Positions 9,410 through 15,586 of a stretch of 64,000 nucleotides of DNA are shown here, piece by piece (positions within the stretch are counted from its first letter, which is position 1; every line of letters starts with the position of its first letter). The DNA comes from Bacteroidota bacterium. Lineage in GTDB: Bacteria > Bacteroidota > Bacteroidia > UKL13-3. Location of the stretch: NCBI GenBank assembly GCA_027484685.1, contig JAIXSO010000032.1:248001-312000 (forward strand). The letters are read 5' to 3'. The position numbers were made by a program, and so were the translations under genes. A model generated the notes under the pieces. That model did no database searches and had not been told where the DNA came from. It saw only the letters and a list, made by a program, of their open reading frames with translations.

Positions 9410-9509
9410 TTAATATTAATAGCAATACAATTATAGCTAAATTTTAAACGCCAAAAGAAGTATTTAAATTACGTATAATTTTTCCTACTCTATTTTACTG
9501 CATAAAACA

Positions 9510-9536
9510 AAAAAAGCAGCCGTTGGCTGCTTTTCT
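9510..9536. terminator. Hairpin terminator downstream of trxA
   Basis: AAAAAGCAGCC-gtt-GGCTGCTTTTC is an 11-bp hairpin adjoining the trxA stop codon. On the minus strand it ends in a T-rich run (TTTTTTTGTTTTA), so it terminates the trxA-containing operon. The stem is almost the same as that after rsmG, differing in the loop. Confidence 0.85.
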
Positions 9537-9836
9537 TTACTCGCTATACTGTTTAATAATTTGGGCCAATTGATGGGCTTGTACCACCCCCGATTGACGC
9601 CACTTTATTTCACCATTCTTAAATAAAATAAGAGTTGGAACCCCTTGAATTCTATAATTTTGGGCTACTTGTGGATTTTTATCTACATCTATTTTTAAAA
9701 TAGTTGCCCCCTCGCCCACCTTTGTTTTTAAATCTTCCAATACAGGTTTCATCATTTTACAAGGCCCACACCACTCGGCAAAAAAATCGACCAAAGTGGG
9801 TTTATTGCTATTTATTATTTCAGAAAAAGTTGCCAT
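9537..9836 (-). CDS. trxA: Thioredoxin
   Basis: This 99-residue thioredoxin carries the canonical active site [13 protein letters not shown], the buried Asp region LVDFF and the cis-proline loop GVPTLILF. It reduces protein disulfides and can also reduce protein persulfides. It is the last gene of the minus-strand cluster 11203-9537, 10 bp after the small Cys-rich membrane protein. It lies directly before a terminator, so it is probably driven by the operator-bearing promoter at 11221-11265. That ties this thioredoxin to sulfur handling rather than to general housekeeping. Confidence 0.95.
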
Positions 9837-9846
9837 TTTTTGTTTA

Positions 9847-10089
9847 TTATTTTACTTCTTCAAAATCTACATCTTGCACCAAATCGTCTTTAGCTTTTTT
9901 TGTGGGCACAGCACATCCATTTACACCACAGCAACCCGTATTAGTTACTGCTTGAAACAAAAAGAATAAAGCAAACGCGCCTACCATATAATCGTGAATT
10001 TGAAATGCTTGAATTAAAAATATAATACCCAAAACCAAGCGCAAACCACGCATAAAATTCCAGCCAGTTAACAATGTTTGTATATTCAT
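9847..10089 (-). CDS. Small membrane protein with a Cys-rich tail (thiol/sulfur cluster)
   Basis: The 80-residue protein has two membrane segments (about 13-27 and 34-50: [28 protein letters not shown]). They are followed by [14 protein letters not shown], with three Cys within six residues, and an acidic C-terminal tail. I recognise it as a type that often sits beside rhodaneses and thioredoxins in Bacteroidota, but know no tested function. The Cys trio could bind metal or carry persulfide; this is inference. Its start codon overlaps the stop of the rhodanese gene by 1 bp, and trxA follows 10 bp later. Confidence 0.75.
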
Positions 10090-10403
10090 TATATTTTATG
10101 TTGCAAACTGCTCCAAGCGCCTCCATTGTGCACATTGGTATATCCGTTCGATTTTAAAATTGATTTAGCTGAAGCACTGCGCATACCCGATGCACAACAA
10201 GTAATAATTGGTTTGTTTTTATCTTTAAGTTTTGCCAAATTACTGTTTAAGGTATCAACCGAAATATTTATAGAACCTTTAATATGTCCGCTAGCATACT
10301 CCCCTTTACTTCTTACATCTAATATAATAGCTCCTTGGCTAACTAATTCAGCGTAATCAACCTTGGGACCAAAACCAAGTAAGTTTTTTATTGTATTTAT
10401 CAT
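10089..10403 (-). CDS. Single-domain rhodanese
   Basis: Rhodaneses move sulfane sulfur via a Cys-persulfide. This 104-residue protein has AILDVRSKGEYASGHIKGSINI (CDC25-like loop before the catalytic Cys) and the active-site loop TCCASGMRS, with two adjacent Cys, the second in the catalytic position. The length fits a stand-alone domain. It lies between a second rhodanese gene (35 bp upstream) and the Cys-rich membrane protein gene (1-bp overlap). The two rhodaneses differ (CCASGMRS against CCASGGRS), so they may act as a relay rather than being redundant. Confidence 0.93.
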   Translation of the reverse strand: MINTIKNLLGFGPKVDYAELVSQGAIILDVRSKGEYASGHIKGSINISVDTLNSNLAKLKDKNKPIITCCASGMRSASAKSILKSNGYTNVHNGGAWSSLQHKI

Positions 10404-10438
10404 GTGTTAATTTTAGAAATCTTTTTTGTAAAAGTATG

Positions 10439-10717
10439 TTAATTATTAGCAAAGTAATTTACATCGAACCAAGAGCCACCATTGAAACATTCAATGCCTT
10501 GTTGACTTAAATAATAATGAGCTTGTCCGCTTCTTCCGCCCGATGCACAACATAAAATTAATGGCATATTTAACGCCTTAATTTCTACTAATTTTTCTGG
10601 TATTTCTTGCAAAGGAATATTAATAGACCCTGCAACATTGCCACCCATAAACTCGCCTGGAGTGCGAACATCCACTACCGTGCCTTTTTTTTCTTTTATA
10701 ATTTGTTCTAAATTCAT
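10439..10717 (-). CDS. Single-domain rhodanese
   Basis: This 92-residue rhodanese has VVDVRTPGEFMGGNVAGSIN and the active-site loop LCCASGGRSGQA. As in its neighbour, a Cys pair occupies the catalytic loop. It follows the HMA-domain gene by 4 bp and precedes the other rhodanese gene by 35 bp. Its stop (TAA) lies at 10439-10441. Role in sulfane-sulfur transfer is from family knowledge; the acceptor is unknown, with the neighbouring thioredoxin and CoA-disulfide reductase as candidates. Confidence 0.93.
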   Translation of the reverse strand: MNLEQIIKEKKGTVVDVRTPGEFMGGNVAGSINIPLQEIPEKLVEIKALNMPLILCCASGGRSGQAHYYLSQQGIECFNGGSWFDVNYFANN

Positions 10718-10721
10718 TTTA

Positions 10722-11006
10722 TTATTCTTTATGTTGTAAATTATTTATTCGTCCTACCATGCAACTAGAGTAACTTTTAAGTTGCAGTAACATTCCATTT
10801 TCTTCAGTAGCTTCTGGATAACCAAGTGAATGCAATTTTTTAACAATTACACTTCTATCAACATCATGGTAAGTTACCGTAACTTTATCTTCTTCGTTAA
10901 ATACTTCAGCGATTTTAACCCCTTCTATTTTTAACAATTCAGTTTTGATGGTATTAGCGCAGCCCGAACATTTAATATTAGCTACAATGATATCTTCTGT
11001 TTTCAT
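10722..11006 (-). CDS. Heavy-metal-associated (HMA) domain protein
   Basis: The 94-residue protein has the ferredoxin-like HMA fold. The metal site is IKCSGCANTIKTELL (CxxC with Cys13 and Cys16), followed by GVKIAEVF and VTVTYH. A C-terminal extension of about 25 residues contains a third Cys (SYSSCMVGR), which plain copper chaperones lack. It may bind Cu(I) or another soft metal. It lies 5 bp from the DUF6132 gene and 4 bp from a rhodanese gene, so it is translated from the same message. Confidence 0.9.
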   Translation of the reverse strand: MKTEDIIVANIKCSGCANTIKTELLKIEGVKIAEVFNEEDKVTVTYHDVDRSVIVKKLHSLGYPEATEENGMLLQLKSYSSCMVGRINNLQHKE

Positions 11007-11011
11007 CTTTA

Positions 11012-11203
11012 TTACTTTTTCTTTGTTAAAATATCGCCTAATAACCCACCCATGGCAGTTCCGTATAAGGTACTGTTTAAAGGCTTAGAAGTAATGGCAC
11101 AAGTACCCGTGGCGCAACCAACATAGTAATAATAAAGATAGCCGACTATAGCACCTAAAATTGCTCCAACTACTATGGTTTTATGTTTTAAAATAAACAT
11201 CAT
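11012..11203 (-). CDS. DUF6132-type small membrane protein
   Basis: I place the start at the ATG pair 11198-11203 (MMFILKHK), giving 63 residues. An upstream in-frame ATG at 11246-11248 would place the promoter and half the operator inside the gene. Two glycine-rich membrane segments (VVGAILGAIVGYLYYYYVG and STLYGTAMGGLLGDIL) flank GCATGTCAITSKP, with two Cys four residues apart. This pattern matches DUF6132, common beside rhodaneses in Bacteroidota. The function is untested; a membrane role in sulfur-compound movement is plausible. It is the first gene of the operon ending with trxA. Confidence 0.75.
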   Translation of the reverse strand: MMFILKHKTIVVGAILGAIVGYLYYYYVGCATGTCAITSKPLNSTLYGTAMGGLLGDILTKKK

Positions 11204-11220
11204 TTTTATATTTTGTTTAG

Positions 11221-11265
11221 CAAAGATAGTTACCAATTTTCGCACCATTTGCTACTTTGGTTACA
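11221..11265 (-). promoter_or_regulatory. Promoter with Crp/Fnr-type operator for the rhodanese-thioredoxin operon (site C)
   Basis: Read on the minus strand, an operator TGTAACCAAAGTAGCA (11265-11250) is followed by a 21-bp spacer and a perfect Bacteroidota -7 box TATCTTTG (11228-11221). The start codon at 11203 is 17 bp further on. The distal half-site TGTAAC is identical to that at two other promoters in this cluster, and the operator-to-box spacing is the same in all three. There is no recognisable -33 element, so activation by a bound regulator is likely. Confidence 0.72.
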
Positions 11266-11280
11266 TAACTATTTGTTTAT

Positions 11281-11874
11281 TTATTTTTTACCTACAAACT
11301 GAACTACACTTGCTAAACCATTGTGAAACTTTCCTTCGTTTAAAACTATATCGTGAGTAACTGAGTGTATTACTTTTAAAGTATCAAAATCTTGCGCAAG
11401 CATACCTTCGGTGTATAACATATTGATGTCTTTTGGCCCGCCAGAAGTGTTTTTTAATTGTGAAGGATTAAATGCTTCAAGTACTAAAGTTCCTCCCGGT
11501 TTTAGCCAATTGAACATTCGTTTATGAATACTTGCTCTAATAGCAACAGGAAAATGAGCGTATATTAATGCTATTACATCAAAAGAATTATTTTCAAAAT
11601 TAATAACCGAAGCATCACCAATTAAATAATCAATTGATACTCCATTTTGTTTGGCTAACAAATTAGCTTTATTCAAACCTTCATTACTAAAATCAAAGGC
11701 GGTAACATGCCAACCATTATTGGCAGCAAAAACAGCATTTCGGCCTTCGCCCTCGCATGGCAATAAAATACTACCCGCCTTTAATTTCAATAATTGTTCT
11801 GCTAAAAATTGATTAGGCATAGTGCCATAAACAAACTCTTTTTCAGCATACCTTTCGTCCCAAAATTGTTTCAT
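11281..11874 (-). CDS. SAM-dependent methyltransferase, TehB/thiopurine-type
   Basis: The 197-residue protein opens with FWDERYAEKEFVYGTMPNQFL, typical of the TehB/TPMT-like branch. SAM motif I is GSILLPCEGEGRNAVFAA and the acidic residue is in VTAFDFSNEGL. Related enzymes methylate tellurite, selenite, thiols or hydrogen sulfide. In this setting methylation of a toxic thiol or chalcogen is a reasonable inference, but the substrate is not readable from sequence. It follows the DUF2892 gene by 3 bp. Confidence 0.85.
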   Translation of the reverse strand: MKQFWDERYAEKEFVYGTMPNQFLAEQLLKLKAGSILLPCEGEGRNAVFAANNGWHVTAFDFSNEGLNKANLLAKQNGVSIDYLIGDASVINFENNSFDVIALIYAHFPVAIRASIHKRMFNWLKPGGTLVLEAFNPSQLKNTSGGPKDINMLYTEGMLAQDFDTLKVIHSVTHDIVLNEGKFHNGLASVVQFVGKK

Positions 11875-11877
11875 TGG

Positions 11878-12084
11878 TTAATCTTGTTTTTTCTTTGTAG
11901 AAAATCCAAATGGTAAATAAAGCGGGCAAAAACTTAAAAAACTAGTTGCAATAAAAATAACTGCTAACACCAATAATACTGTAGCTAATATGCCACTAAT
12001 TTGGCCTAGAAAATAAAGTGCAGCAATTGCTACCGCTACTAAAATTCTAACCACTTTGTCTGCTGTTCCCATGTTTGCTTTCAT
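11878..12084 (-). CDS. DUF2892 membrane protein
   Basis: The 68-residue protein has the family start MKANMGTADKVVRILVAVAI, two membrane segments and the motif SFLSFCPLYLPFGFST with one Cys after the second segment. DUF2892 is the membrane part of YgaP-type rhodaneses, so its place next to rhodanese genes fits. It is the first gene of a two-gene operon with the TehB-like methyltransferase, downstream of the operator-bearing promoter at 12118-12162. Confidence 0.9.
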   Translation of the reverse strand: MKANMGTADKVVRILVAVAIAALYFLGQISGILATVLLVLAVIFIATSFLSFCPLYLPFGFSTKKKQD

Positions 12085-12117
12085 ATCTTACTTATTTTAA
12101 AATTGTTAATTATTCAA

Positions 12118-12162
12118 CAATGTTAAGCATTTTAAATGCATACTTCTGTTACTTTTGTTACA
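12118..12162 (-). promoter_or_regulatory. Promoter with Crp/Fnr-type operator for the DUF2892-methyltransferase operon (site B)
   Basis: On the minus strand, TGTAACAAAAGTAACA (12162-12147) precedes, after a 21-bp spacer, the -7-like box TAACATTG (12125-12118; one mismatch to TAnnTTTG). The start codon is at 12084. The spacing and the TGTAAC half-site match sites A and C exactly. The proximal half-site GTAACA differs in one base from the palindrome ideal GTTACA. Confidence 0.68.
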
Positions 12163-12208
12163 TAAGGAAACCACGAATTAAAGTACTGATTATGAATTAT
12201 TTACAAAT

Positions 12209-13852
12209 CTAGTTAAAACTTTGGTATAATTTAAATCCACCAGAAAGGTTAAAAGTATTTTCAAAACCATTTTGTGTTAAAATTTGCTGTGCTAAATAAC
12301 CGCGTTGCCCACCTAAACAGTATAAATAAATGGTATTATTTTTATCTAACTCATTTAACCTAGTTCTCAAATTATCTAATGGAATATTGATGGCATTGGT
12401 TATGCGATTTTCCGCAAACTCTAACGCTGTTCTTACATCTAACAAAATAGCGTTTTCAGGTAAATTATGAATTTCATTTACATAAAAAACTTTATGCTTT
12501 TTTAGTAAAATATTTTCGGCAACAAAAGCAGCTATATTAATTGGATCTTTTGCCGATGAAAAAGGAGGCGCATAAGCATGTTCAAAATTAGTTAAATCAA
12601 AAATGGTGTTACCTTGTGTAATAGCAGCCGAAAGTACATCAATGCGTTTATCTACACCTTCAAAACCTACAATTTGAGCTCCATAAAGTTCACCATTGTT
12701 TGGAGAAAAAGCCAATTGAATAGTCATTTGTTGTGCACCAGGATAGTAGCCCGCATGCGAACCATTATGAGTGGTTGAAACTATATGTTCAATTTTATTT
12801 AAGGTTAAATGTTTTGAAGCCATTCCTGTGGCAGCTACTGTCATATCAAATACTTTAACAATAGCCGTATTTATAGCTCCTTTATATGTTTGTTTATTTC
12901 CCAAAACAATATTATTTGCACAAATTCTTCCTTGCTTATTAGCAGGACCAGCCAAATAAGTATTCATTGAATTTTTTGAAATAGGATTGGTAAATTCAAT
13001 GGCATCGCCAACAGCATATACATCAGGATTTGAGGTTTGTAAAAACTCATTTACCCAAATGCCTTTAGCTGCTCCTAATTTTAAACCTGCCATAGTAGCT
13101 AATTTGGTATCAGGTTTTACACCAATTGACATGATTACAGTATCAGTTTCTAATACTTCACCATTATTTAAAATTACTTTTAAAACTTGATTTTCTTTTT
13201 CAAAACCTGTAACCGCAGTATTTAACTTTAAACCTACTCCTTTTGATAAAATATGTTGTTGAACTATGGCAGCCAAAGGCAAATCGAGTGGTGCCAGTAT
13301 TTGATTACCCATTTCAATAATGGTTACATTTAAACCAATTTCATGCAAATTTTCAGCCATTTCAAGCCCTATAAAACCAGCACCAATAATGACAACATTT
13401 TTTACTTTTTCTTGGTTTACATAAGCTTTTATATAATCGGTATCGTTAACATTTCGTAAAGTAAATATACCATTATTTTGTATCCCCGGCAATGGTGGAC
13501 GCATGGGTTCTGCCCCTGGCGATAAAACCAATTTATCGTAACTTTCGGTATAGGTTAGTCCCGTTATTTGATTAAAAGCAGTAACTGTTTTATTTTCCAC
13601 ATCAATGGCAGTTACCTCTGTCAATGTTCTTACATCAATATTGAAACGGCTATTAAATGCCGATGCAGTTTGAACAAAAAGTTCGTTTCTATCTTTTATA
13701 ACATTGCCTATATAATATGGCAAACCACAGTTTGCATAAGAAATGTACTCGCCTTTTTCAAAAATTACAATTTCGGCCTTTTCATTTAATCTTCTTAACC
13801 TTGCAGCAGCACTTGCTCCACCAGCCACCGCGCCTATTATTACATATTTCAT
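12209..13852 (-). CDS. CoA-disulfide reductase fused to a C-terminal rhodanese domain
   Basis: The 547-residue flavoprotein starts with the FAD-binding motif VIIGAVAGGASAAARLRR and has the redox-active Cys42 in SYANCGLPYYIG, the CoADR hallmark. A second nucleotide site is VVIIGAGFIGLEMAENL, followed by AVGDAIE and a dimerisation domain. From about residue 455 there is a rhodanese domain (AILLDVRTALEFAENR, active-site loop LYCLGGQRGYLA). CoADR-Rhd enzymes reduce CoA disulfide, CoA persulfide or polysulfide with NAD(P)H. It is a single gene behind its own operator-bearing promoter and next to the crp-like operon. Confidence 0.95.
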   Translation of the reverse strand: MKYVIIGAVAGGASAAARLRRLNEKAEIVIFEKGEYISYANCGLPYYIGNVIKDRNELFVQTASAFNSRFNIDVRTLTEVTAIDVENKTVTAFNQITGLTYTESYDKLVLSPGAEPMRPPLPGIQNNGIFTLRNVNDTDYIKAYVNQEKVKNVVIIGAGFIGLEMAENLHEIGLNVTIIEMGNQILAPLDLPLAAIVQQHILSKGVGLKLNTAVTGFEKENQVLKVILNNGEVLETDTVIMSIGVKPDTKLATMAGLKLGAAKGIWVNEFLQTSNPDVYAVGDAIEFTNPISKNSMNTYLAGPANKQGRICANNIVLGNKQTYKGAINTAIVKVFDMTVAATGMASKHLTLNKIEHIVSTTHNGSHAGYYPGAQQMTIQLAFSPNNGELYGAQIVGFEGVDKRIDVLSAAITQGNTIFDLTNFEHAYAPPFSSAKDPINIAAFVAENILLKKHKVFYVNEIHNLPENAILLDVRTALEFAENRITNAINIPLDNLRTRLNELDKNNTIYLYCLGGQRGYLAQQILTQNGFENTFNLSGGFKLYQSFN

Positions 13853-13874
13853 TTTATACTTTTTAATTACAGTA

Positions 13875-13919
13875 CAAAATTACTTATTGCTTAAAAACCA
13901 AATGGTAACCTATGTTACA
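13875..13919 (-). promoter_or_regulatory. Promoter with Crp/Fnr-type operator for CoA-disulfide reductase (site A)
   Basis: On the minus strand, TGTAACATAGGTTACC (13919-13904) is the best palindrome of the three sites: GTAAC-N4-GTTAC is perfect. After a 21-bp spacer comes the -7 box TAATTTTG (13882-13875), a full match to TAnnTTTG. The start codon at 13852 follows 22 bp later. The operator centre lies about 41 bp from the expected transcription start, the place used by class II activators of the Crp/Fnr family. Confidence 0.78.
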
Positions 13920-13964
13920 AAACAATCTGTTTTAAAATAGATGTAAATACTAAATACCTACAAA

Positions 13965-14486
13965 CTATTCAATACCAGACACATGATTCCTAATAAAATC
14001 CTTCAAAATTGTAAACTCACCTTCTAACATGCTGCTTTTAAAAAAGATAAAATCTTGAGAGGCAAAAATTTCAACTGTATTTTCTTTTAATTCAACTCTT
14101 TTCACAGTTGACCATTTTTCTATTACCTCCATTTCATCGGAGAAAAAAGAAAACGCCTCATTACTTAAAATTAATTTAGAAGTGTTATGCTTTGTATTTT
14201 GTACTGCATACTCTTTAACTGATTTTTTCCATTTCAACAAAGTAAACATTTGCTTAACTAATAAAACAATGTAAATAATAAATATTATAAAAAACAATTC
14301 ACTCAGTTTTTCAATATGATTAGTAAAAATAAAAATAGTTCGAGTTAAAATTGAAATACCACCTAGTGCTATGCACGAAATGGTATATTGTTTTGTAATT
14401 GGTGAAAAAAATAATTTTTCATAACCATCTTTAAAAAAAGATGCCTCTATGTCTGAACTTGTTAAATTTATTTTTATTTCAATCAT
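13965..14486 (-). CDS. YcxB-like membrane protein
   Basis: The 173-residue protein has two central membrane segments (about 34-55 and 62-82). It ends with a soluble beta domain containing TSKLILSNEAFSFFSDEMEV and IEKWSTVKRVELKENTVEIF, the pattern of the YcxB-like family, where W and the S/T motif are conserved. The function of the family is unknown. It is the third gene of a minus-strand operon after the Crp/Fnr regulator and ICMT-like genes (9 bp spacing). Confidence 0.75.
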   Translation of the reverse strand: MIEIKINLTSSDIEASFFKDGYEKLFFSPITKQYTISCIALGGISILTRTIFIFTNHIEKLSELFFIIFIIYIVLLVKQMFTLLKWKKSVKEYAVQNTKHNTSKLILSNEAFSFFSDEMEVIEKWSTVKRVELKENTVEIFASQDFIFFKSSMLEGEFTILKDFIRNHVSGIE

Positions 14487-14495
14487 TTTTTCTAA

Positions 14496-14951
14496 TTAAA
14501 TAAACGGAAAAAACCTTCCTGTATCAAGCTTATAATCAGCGTATTTACTAAACTTGATAGAAAGCATTTTTTCTTCGTAAATTGATTTAAAATAAAACAA
14601 AATCCAAAGAAAAACACCAATACCAATGCGCCAAATATTTTGATTATAAAAACCAAACGAAATGGTGCAAACTATAATTCCCGTATAAATAGGATGACGA
14701 ATAAATTTATACAAACCAGTATTGATCAAACTTCCTTTTTGCTTAGGACTTGGAAAAGGTGTTAAATTTTTATCAAGCTGAACAATGGCTAAAATTATTA
14801 CTAAAAAACCTAAAACGGCTAAGCCTAAAAACAAGTACTTAACCACTAAATTAACAAATAAAAATTCAATGGTAATTGGCAACAGATAAGCTACAAAAAG
14901 TAGCATTTGAATAGAGATAAATAATAAATCTTTAAAAGGAGGTTTAGTCAT
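14496..14951 (-). CDS. Isoprenylcysteine carboxyl methyltransferase-type membrane protein
   Basis: The 151-residue protein has four membrane segments and the catalytic motif FIRHPIYTGIIVC, followed by YEEKMLSIKFSKYADY, which is the RHP(x)Y...EE signature of the ICMT/PEMT family. It should use SAM at the membrane, but the acceptor is unknown (bacterial members modify lipids or small molecules). It lies 5 bp after the regulator gene, suggesting translational coupling in a regulator-methyltransferase-YcxB operon. Confidence 0.87.
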   Translation of the reverse strand: MTKPPFKDLLFISIQMLLFVAYLLPITIEFLFVNLVVKYLFLGLAVLGFLVIILAIVQLDKNLTPFPSPKQKGSLINTGLYKFIRHPIYTGIIVCTISFGFYNQNIWRIGIGVFLWILFYFKSIYEEKMLSIKFSKYADYKLDTGRFFPFI

Positions 14952-14956
14952 AAATG

Positions 14957-15586
14957 CTATTCTATTTCCAATAATTGAATTTTGTTTCTTCCTAATTTAA
15001 CCAAACCTTTTTCTTCCATTTGCTTTAATAAACGCGATACCACTACCCTAGCTGTACCTAGTTCATTAGCTAAGTTTTCGTGAGTTATGTACAATGAATG
15101 ACTATTGGTTAATTGGCATTTCTTTTTTATAAAATTAAGCAATCTATCATCCATTTTGGTAAAAGCTACTGCATTTACAACCTCTAACAGTTCTTCAAAA
15201 CGTTTGTGATATAACCTAAAAATATAATCTAACCACTCAGGAAATTCTTTAATTAATAAATTAACTTTATCAATTGGAATGAATAATATTTCGGTAGGCT
15301 CTTCGGCTACTGCACTTACTTTACTGGTATCGTGATGTATGCCTCCTAAAAACGACATAATGCAACTTTCGCCAGCTTTTATGTAGTACAATAATATTTC
15401 TCTACCATCCTCGTCAGAACGCATAACCCTAATATTTCCGCGGGTAACAATAGGAATGGCATTTATATATGCATTTTCATTGAGTATAATATCGCCTTCG
15501 GCAAAATTTTTAGTAAAACCATAGTCTTTTAACTTTTCTTTTACCAAAGGCAACGCTTTAAATTCGGCCAAATTATCTAATTCCAT
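14957..15586 (-). CDS. Crp/Fnr family transcriptional regulator
   Basis: The 209-residue protein has an N-terminal cyclic-nucleotide-binding-like beta roll (about 25-115, with RGNIRVMRSDEDGREILLYY), a long dimer helix and a C-terminal winged helix (LANELGTARVVVSRLLKQME, recognition helix around TARVVVSR). It lacks the N-terminal Fe-S cysteines of Fnr. Two Cys are present, Cys75 (GESCIMSF) in the sensor domain and Cys157, so thiol-based sensing is possible. The neighbouring thiol/sulfur genes carry three operators of Crp/Fnr form, making this the natural candidate regulator. Confidence 0.93.
   Translation of the reverse strand: MELDNLAEFKALPLVKEKLKDYGFTKNFAEGDIILNENAYINAIPIVTRGNIRVMRSDEDGREILLYYIKAGESCIMSFLGGIHHDTSKVSAVAEEPTEILFIPIDKVNLLIKEFPEWLDYIFRLYHKRFEELLEVVNAVAFTKMDDRLLNFIKKKCQLTNSHSLYITHENLANELGTARVVVSRLLKQMEEKGLVKLGRNKIQLLEIE

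Follow-up and report, generated by a model that had tools for sequence, protein, structure and literature searches.

A candidate class II Crp/Fnr regulon for sulfane-sulfur handling, with three promoters of identical geometry, in a Bacteroidota bacterium

Three transcription units behind promoters of identical geometry

We analyzed a 64,000-nucleotide stretch of a Bacteroidota bacterium genome (contig JAIXSO010000032.1, positions 248,001 to 312,000; hereafter the window, to which all positions refer), in which the gene for a Crp/Fnr regulator lies near three minus-strand transcription units that probably form its regulon for sulfane-sulfur handling. The units run from 13919 to 9509, each behind an operator, 21 bp and a -7 box, and the promoters span 13875-13919, 12118-12162 and 11221-11265. 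A first-pass annotation, made from the letters alone, had described them as TGTAAC-N4-GTWRCM, exactly 21 bp and a TAnnTTTG-like box, and a pattern search confirmed this: the exact operator occurs three times in the 64-kb window, each time at one of these promoters, compared with a mean of 0.03 in dinucleotide shuffles of the window, none of which (0/100) reached three. Operator 1 (TGTAACATAGGTTACC, 13904..13919) is followed at 21 bp by the box TAATTTTG (13875..13882), operator 2 (TGTAACAAAAGTAACA, 12147..12162) by TAACATTG (12118..12125), which has five of the six fixed letters, and operator 3 (TGTAACCAAAGTAGCA, 11250..11265) by TATCTTTG (11221..11228). In addition to pattern search and shuffles, the operators are supported by a comparison with congeners (TGTAAC of operator 1 is kept in all four compared), as are the three boxes.

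The first unit encodes a CoA-disulfide-reductase-like protein with a C-terminal rhodanese domain (12209..13852; Pfam Pyr_redox_2 and Rhodanese; hereafter CoADR-rhodanese), whose best NCBIfam family was CoA-disulfide reductase TIGR03385, with 485 bits, under the cut-off of 579. The second comprises genes for a YgaP-like transmembrane protein (DUF2892; 11878..12084; PF11127, E value of 1.5e-20) and a SAM-dependent methyltransferase of the Methyltransf_25/TPMT type by Pfam and NCBIfam (11281..11874). The third opens with a DUF6132 small membrane protein (PF19628; 11012..11203), for which a start 3' of the promoter was taken, since the ATG at 11248 sits upstream of the -7 box and 11203 is the usable start. 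It continues with an HMA-domain protein (10722..11006; PF00403), two single-domain rhodaneses (10439..10717 and 10089..10403; both PF00581), a Cys-rich small membrane protein (9847..10089) that has no Pfam family and has homologues in the same cluster elsewhere, and a thioredoxin (9537..9836) scoring over the cut-off of NCBIfam TIGR01068, and it ends at an intrinsic terminator with a 13-pair stem and a T run (9509..9537). The earlier gene assignments agreed with Pfam, except that "TehB-like" is a weak label for the methyltransferase, which scored 20.4 bits at a Pfam cut-off of 20.4 and 21.6 bits against an NCBIfam cut-off of 219.5.

The regulator gene (14957..15586, minus strand) encodes 209 residues with Pfam domains cNMP_binding (PF00027) and HTH_Crp_2 (PF13545), both over cut-off. 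Between it and promoter 1 lie two genes, for proteins of 151 (14496-14951) and 173 (13965-14486) residues. An AlphaFold2 model (pLDDT of 86, pTM of 0.64) matched CRP-type structures (TM scores of about 0.5-0.6), NtcA and PDB entry 3dv8 with a large full-chain root-mean-square deviation, so that the two domains may be differently oriented in the model. By its cNMP-binding-type domain, Crp-type helix-turn-helix and CRP fold match, the protein belongs to the Crp/Fnr superfamily; it scored far below the NCBIfam equivalogs for CRP (PRK11753, 49 bits against a cut-off of 266) and NtcA (43.3 against 244.95 bits), and with Cys75 and Cys157 as its sole cysteines, it lacks the four-cysteine cluster set of the FNR type.

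The whole 4.5-Mb genome contains seven exact operators, three of which are those of the window. A fourth, intergenic on contig 10 (150680, minus strand), lies 21 bp from CACATTTG and precedes genes for a type IX-secreted protein and a DUF2202 protein, and the remaining three, of which one lies within the gene for a ribosomal protein, gave no match in an operator-plus-box search allowing up to 3 mismatches. Near the fourth site (L038, 4347-4989), two adjoining short frames stand behind the first gene, the second matching DUF2202, which may come from a shifted frame or a faulty assembly. A TolC gene (contig 25) and a VF530 gene (contig 57) have weak upstream sites, with 3 and 2 mismatches respectively, and we left both out as regulon members, though RND operons elsewhere have exact sites in three loci.

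Sites, spacing and target genes recur with the regulator

A contig search with the regulator yielded 302 relatives, the best 80 of which (69-89% identical) define the named loci, mostly from metagenome-assembled Bacteroidota and in three cases titled just "bacterium"; genes were labeled by BLAST clusters of mechanical reading frames, with Pfam run on representatives only. Cluster genes were present in 69 of the 80 loci, the groups being rhodaneses, DUF6132, YgaP-TM, thioredoxin, lipoprotein-type rhodanese-thioredoxin, MBL-rhodanese, TauE, OsmC, Cys-rich membrane proteins, HMA, methyltransferases, CoADR, DUF983 and DUF302. The 376 regions upstream of cluster genes contained TGTAAC-N4-GTNRC 76 times (53 loci), versus 3 times for 1109 other upstream regions, and as controls, eight scrambled half-sites gave 0-3 sites each and a TGTGAC variant gave 6. 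At exactly 21 bp, 71 of the 76 sites had at least 5/6 box letters, versus 0-3 at any other spacing from 10 to 35 bp.

When 3 operator mismatches were allowed, a permissive scan of the cluster genes detected 81 sites with the 21-bp spacing, spread over 54 loci, and just 5 with a spacing of 19, 20, 22 or 23 bp, compared with 13 in all (3 at 21 bp) before non-cluster genes and 9 at 21 bp in 20 pooled letter shuffles. The distal TGTAAC, called invariant in the first-pass annotation, was exact in 74/81 sites and is thus nearly general among relatives, and the proximal half was exactly GTTACA only once in 81, with G kept in 79, T in 81 and C in 81. Because this half is degenerate, counting perfect 6-N-6 palindromes around the regulator missed the site, TGTAAC not being among the 40 commonest. 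The first pass had also proposed conservation in relatives as a test; when it was run, sites, spacing, target genes and regulator were found to recur together across Bacteroidota.

We further searched 296 Bacteroidia genomes, among which the full 45-bp pattern matched without mismatch in 78 (reversed control, 1/296) and a regulator homologue (E<=1e-40) was present in 143. Sites occurred in 61/143 genomes with the homologue versus 17/153 without it (Fisher p = 5e-10, an optimistic value because the genomes are related). Among 10 genomes of the genus, sites (up to 1 mismatch) occur in exactly the 7 that have the regulator, and the 3 genomes without the regulator, one of them 65% complete, have none; in four congeners (G298, G299, G302 and G303), regulator and operons are on different contigs.

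The three promoters were also compared, ungapped, with those of four CoADR-bearing congeners, whose sites had been chosen by the genus pattern search and which are so alike that the footprint is close to one comparison. TGTAAC was identical in 24/24 letters at each promoter, and the boxes of promoters 1 to 3 in 32/32, 29/32 and 24/32, versus 24/84, 46/84 and 32/84 for the 21-bp spacers, 29-35% for the 60 bp upstream and 39-45% for the stretch past the box. Operators and boxes match between congeners, and spacers and upstream DNA have diverged. No CoADR homologue was found in congeners G296 and G304; in the locus from one of these two (L275), a persulfide-dioxygenase-like MBL-rhodanese replaces CoADR, together with TauE.

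The neighboring Crp/Fnr protein probably binds the sites

The recognition helix of the regulator reads TARVVVSR, with Arg180, Val181 and Arg185, and operator bases correlate with positions 180 and 181 in a published analysis (PMC1274295). To compare residue and operator, we used loci with a site within 3.5 kb downstream of the regulator and counted identical site sequences once. A half was scored as TGTGA-type if position 4 was G or position 13 was C; this type occurred in 7/8 sites of Glu/Thr181 regulators versus 8/68 of those with Val181, a covariation that was significant in this set of related sequences (Fisher p = 2e-5). On the Spirosoma linguale plasmid pSLIN02, where the residue is Glu181, TGTAACATTTGTCACG with a GTCAC half-site was seen by eye 21 bp before TACTTTCG.

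In 54/113 loci (the 113-regulator set contains 6 duplicates, 118 of 124 rows being different), the TAA stop codon of the regulator is part of the operator TGTAAC, so that the target promoter begins inside the regulator gene. The genome of the window encodes 13 cNMP-binding proteins including the regulator; the 10 of 12 paralogues that were readable (L043 and L051 were left out) have no Val at 181, and none exceeds 30% identity over the reported stretch, the best significant match being 25% identical. Taken together, these sequence comparisons indicated that the neighboring Crp/Fnr protein is very probably the binder of the sites.

Promoter geometry predicts class II activation

A published study places the TAnnTTTG -7 box at -12 to -5 (PMC9723704), and that position together with the 21-bp spacing puts the predicted operator center at -41.5. 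Alignment of 86 sites gave no signal for a -33 element, in keeping with the first-pass remark that none was clear. An operator centered near -41.5 without a -35/-33 element is the layout of a class II activator, and the predicted geometry, with 71/76 sites at 21 bp, has these features; the class II geometry of the first-pass annotation is strengthened accordingly.

Target genes favor a role in sulfane-sulfur handling

The 86 sites come from a survey of 80 stretches chosen from the 45-bp genome sites, some being the same contigs as the named loci. Core genes were taken as TauE, YeeE, SQR, SoxA- or SoxB-like, rhodanese, MBL-rhodanese and CoADR, plus the cluster genes DUF6132 and YgaP-TM. Such a gene was found in the operon behind 61 sites, and running Pfam on eight unassigned genes raised this to 63. 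Another 11/86 sites stood before genes for peroxiredoxin, RND efflux, methyltransferase, SulP or DUF302, and 2/86 before hcp, the others being unassigned or without a close gene. Among the targets, one gene passes the model for type III SQR, and another is SoxB-like, below cut-off.

As relatives carry sulfur-type genes in the regulon, the sulfur reading is supported, and the target set fits the handling of sulfide-derived sulfane sulfur. The first-pass annotation had left the role between sulfide/polysulfide and disulfide stress: the persulfide-dioxygenase-like, TauE, YeeE and SQR targets of relatives favor sulfane-sulfur or sulfide homeostasis, and general disulfide or tellurite stress is less favored. 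CoADR and a persulfide-dioxygenase-like gene shared none of 61 clusters, that of the window included (5 with CoADR, 23 with the dioxygenase, 33 with neither; p = 0.15). This mutual exclusion is not significant and is only suggestive; in the genome of the window, the reductive CoADR-rhodanese takes the place that the dioxygenase has in many relatives. TauE, by comparison, accompanied the dioxygenase in 16/23 clusters versus 1/38 without it, which is significant. Two dioxygenase-like genes elsewhere in the genome had no operator with box in the stretch examined, and a search for type III SQR in the genome, run without a positive control, gave no match.

In L207, L210, L214, L219 and L234, an exact site is followed first by a peroxiredoxin gene (the one scanned has a C-terminal domain of the 1-Cys type), and these genes are a possible antioxidant arm of the regulon. 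In L180 and L182, whose genomes have no regulator homologue at E<=1e-40, the exact operator, 21 bp and box precede hcp (Prismane); they fit the published HcpR2 motif and point to a class II layout of this kind for HcpR2 in Bacteroidia too.

Cys75 is the candidate sensor residue

The first pass had pointed to two cysteines in the regulator, of which one held up: Cys75, in GESCIMSF, is kept in 113/113 homologues, and Cys157 is present in 63/95 close and 0/18 distant ones. Given this poor conservation, Cys157 was ruled out as a second sensor residue, and only Cys75 can be a general one. The 18 distant homologues have Cys81 (17/18) and Cys82 (14/18), where close ones have Gly-Gly, and they do not keep His84, which is invariant in the 95 close homologues.

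Proposed model and what weighs against it

We propose that the regulator at 14957-15586 acts as a class II transcription activator. Its dimer would bind the TGTAAC-N4-GTNRC operators centered at -41.5, standing in for the absent -33 element, and would recruit RNA polymerase to the TAnnTTTG -7 box, switching on three units for the handling of reactive (sulfane) sulfur. CoADR-rhodanese would reduce CoA or thiol persulfides or disulfides with NAD(P)H, the YgaP-type membrane protein and methyltransferase would be switched on as the second unit, and the products of the third unit (DUF6132, HMA, two rhodaneses, Cys-rich membrane protein, thioredoxin) would pass sulfane sulfur along and reduce it. 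The likely sensor is Cys75, which lies in the region of the effector-binding loop of other family members and would probably act by persulfidation. We assign this model as a whole a probability of roughly 0.75. At the level of sequence, the sites, their geometry, the target set and the regulator-operator match are established; dimer binding, activation, the inducer and the role of Cys75 we infer.

Several observations weigh against the model. The genes behind the fourth genomic site have no sulfur role known to us. Persulfide sensors are known to use two Cys, whereas close homologues of the regulator keep only one invariant Cys. Of the 17 genomes that have sites without a homologue at E<=1e-40, three have them beside a weaker homologue (G070, G178 and G218) and two before hcp (G069 and G155), and twelve are unexplained. 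In the genus, the reversed control with 1 mismatch matched 11 times in 7/10 genomes versus 28 true matches, which makes any single site with one mismatch weak evidence. A 21-bp site is absent from 15/69 loci with cluster genes, and 23/113 regulators have no site within 3.5 kb downstream. Finally, the covariation at residue 181 comes from sequences that are not independent and is not strict, as 8/68 Val181 regulators go with a TGTGA-type half and 1/8 Glu/Thr181 regulators does not.

Alternative readings

The alternative that survives best, which we consider unlikely, keeps the regulon and its class II geometry and has Cys75 hold a heme or metal through which the regulator responds to a gas or redox cue. 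This residue never varies and falls in the region of the heme Cys of CooA, a Crp/Fnr protein with heme ligands Cys75 and His77, and His84 is invariant in the close homologues; however, the 18 distant homologues do not keep His84 and mostly have Cys81 and Cys82. PgRsp, another Bacteroidota Crp/Fnr protein, is reported to bind heme (PMC6955866), and the operator of HcpR2 regulators is almost identical (PMC1274295). Against this, most target operons have sulfur or cluster genes rather than respiratory or NO genes, the two hcp sites excepted.

Repression, relieved by sulfur species as with CstR or BigR, seems an improbable role for the regulator at these sites: an operator at -49 to -34 might equally block polymerase, but the fixed -41.5 position and the absent -33 signal mark activator-dependent promoters, and a repressor would not need the exact 21-bp spacing (71/76).

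More improbable still is a reading in which the linked regulator is a bystander and another Crp/Fnr protein of the cell, for instance a nitrosative stress regulator of the HcpR2 type, acts at the sites. In its favor, the HcpR2 motif GTAACnnnnGTTAC is the core of the operator (PMC1274295), two sites elsewhere precede hcp and the genome has 13 cNMP-binding proteins. Against it, hcp was not found in this genome by a search positive in 5/14 control genomes, no readable paralogue is over 30% identical or has Val181, the sites track the regulator across the genus even when it is on another contig, residue 181 covaries with the operator, and the regulator stop codon lies inside the operator in 54/113 loci.

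Relation to known systems

HcpR2 of Bacteroides and Clostridium is of the same superfamily and has the same operator core, and hcp genes in two Bacteroidia stand behind the same 45-bp layout. In the published account, HcpR2 has Pro181 in most genomes and hcp as its main target (PMC1274295), whereas the regulator of the window has Val181 (Glu in some relatives), sulfur targets and no hcp found in its genome, and is not assigned to that group. NtcA, the cyanobacterial nitrogen regulator, resembles the regulator in sequence, fold and the Arg-Val and Arg of the recognition helix. NtcA binds GTA-N8-TAC at class II promoters, a site that the operators here may resemble in part; operator 1 has GTA-N8-TAC, and operators 2 and 3 have GTA-N8-AAC and GTA-N8-AGC. 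In contrast, the NtcA equivalog score is far under cut-off, and the targets are different.

In gene content, the regulon is comparable to the cst operon of Staphylococcus aureus (CstR) and to the BigR/SqrR and FisR sulfide responses. CstR is of the CsoR family, BigR/SqrR of the ArsR family, and FisR is sigma54-dependent, and they differ in this from a Crp/Fnr protein with a class II site. The sulfide genes listed in a review are those for sulfurtransferase, persulfide dioxygenase and SQR in S. aureus and for persulfide dioxygenase, SQR and TauE in Acinetobacter baumannii (PMC8148161); the words "bacteroid" and "flavobacter" are absent from the text of the review used for context, by word search. 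Among solved structures, the best sequence match is the Eubacterium rectale Crp/Fnr protein of PDB 3dv8, which keeps the same Cys and whose function is not known to us. Compared with CooA, the regulator has no counterpart of the ligand His77 (Ile76-Met77-Ser78 follow Cys75), CooA structures were only weak matches, and no CO-oxidation genes were noticed among the targets. The open-access literature, surveyed largely by abstracts, yielded no description of a Crp/Fnr sulfur regulon of such make-up, and the first pass likewise knew of none described in Bacteroidota.

From its sequence distribution, the regulon looks like a sulfur-stress control system recurring across many Bacteroidota. If so, these bacteria have a Crp/Fnr regulator of sulfur stress with one candidate sensor Cys and a readable operator code, and DUF6132 and Cys-rich small membrane proteins become testable as sulfane-sulfur proteins. 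The system is carried by the named strains Thermoflexibacter ruber DSM 9560 and Spirosoma linguale DSM 74 and is testable now.

Relatives on plasmids

A plasmid search returned 31 records with regulator relatives, and the Cys was kept in all five regions read. On Spirosoma linguale pSLIN02 (L276), the relative precedes DUF81 (TauE), beta-lactamase-fold and YeeE genes, and on alphaproteobacterial plasmids of Ruegeria (L277) and Paracoccus (L278), relatives precede DUF6691 and MBL genes, with YeeE annotated in Ruegeria; in these three plasmids, gene sets of the TauE/MBL, YeeE/MBL or DUF2892/MBL kind follow the regulator gene directly. The Persicobacter plasmid relative has no such cluster, just a PatB C-S lyase, and an Azospirillum relative has a DUF2892 gene a few genes on.

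More tentatively, and with slightly less than even confidence, we suggest that a Crp/Fnr activator subfamily of at least Bacteroidota and Alphaproteobacteria could be a dedicated sulfane-sulfur sensor. Persulfide would be sensed at the invariant Cys75 in the former cAMP pocket, position 181 would set a TGTAAC or TGTGAC half, and the disposal modules controlled would be interchangeable, oxidative (persulfide dioxygenase and TauE) or, as in the window, reductive (CoADR-rhodanese).

Behind the regulator genes of the Ruegeria and Paracoccus plasmids, we also observed a common GTGAC-N3-GTCAC palindrome, followed by TGAAG.

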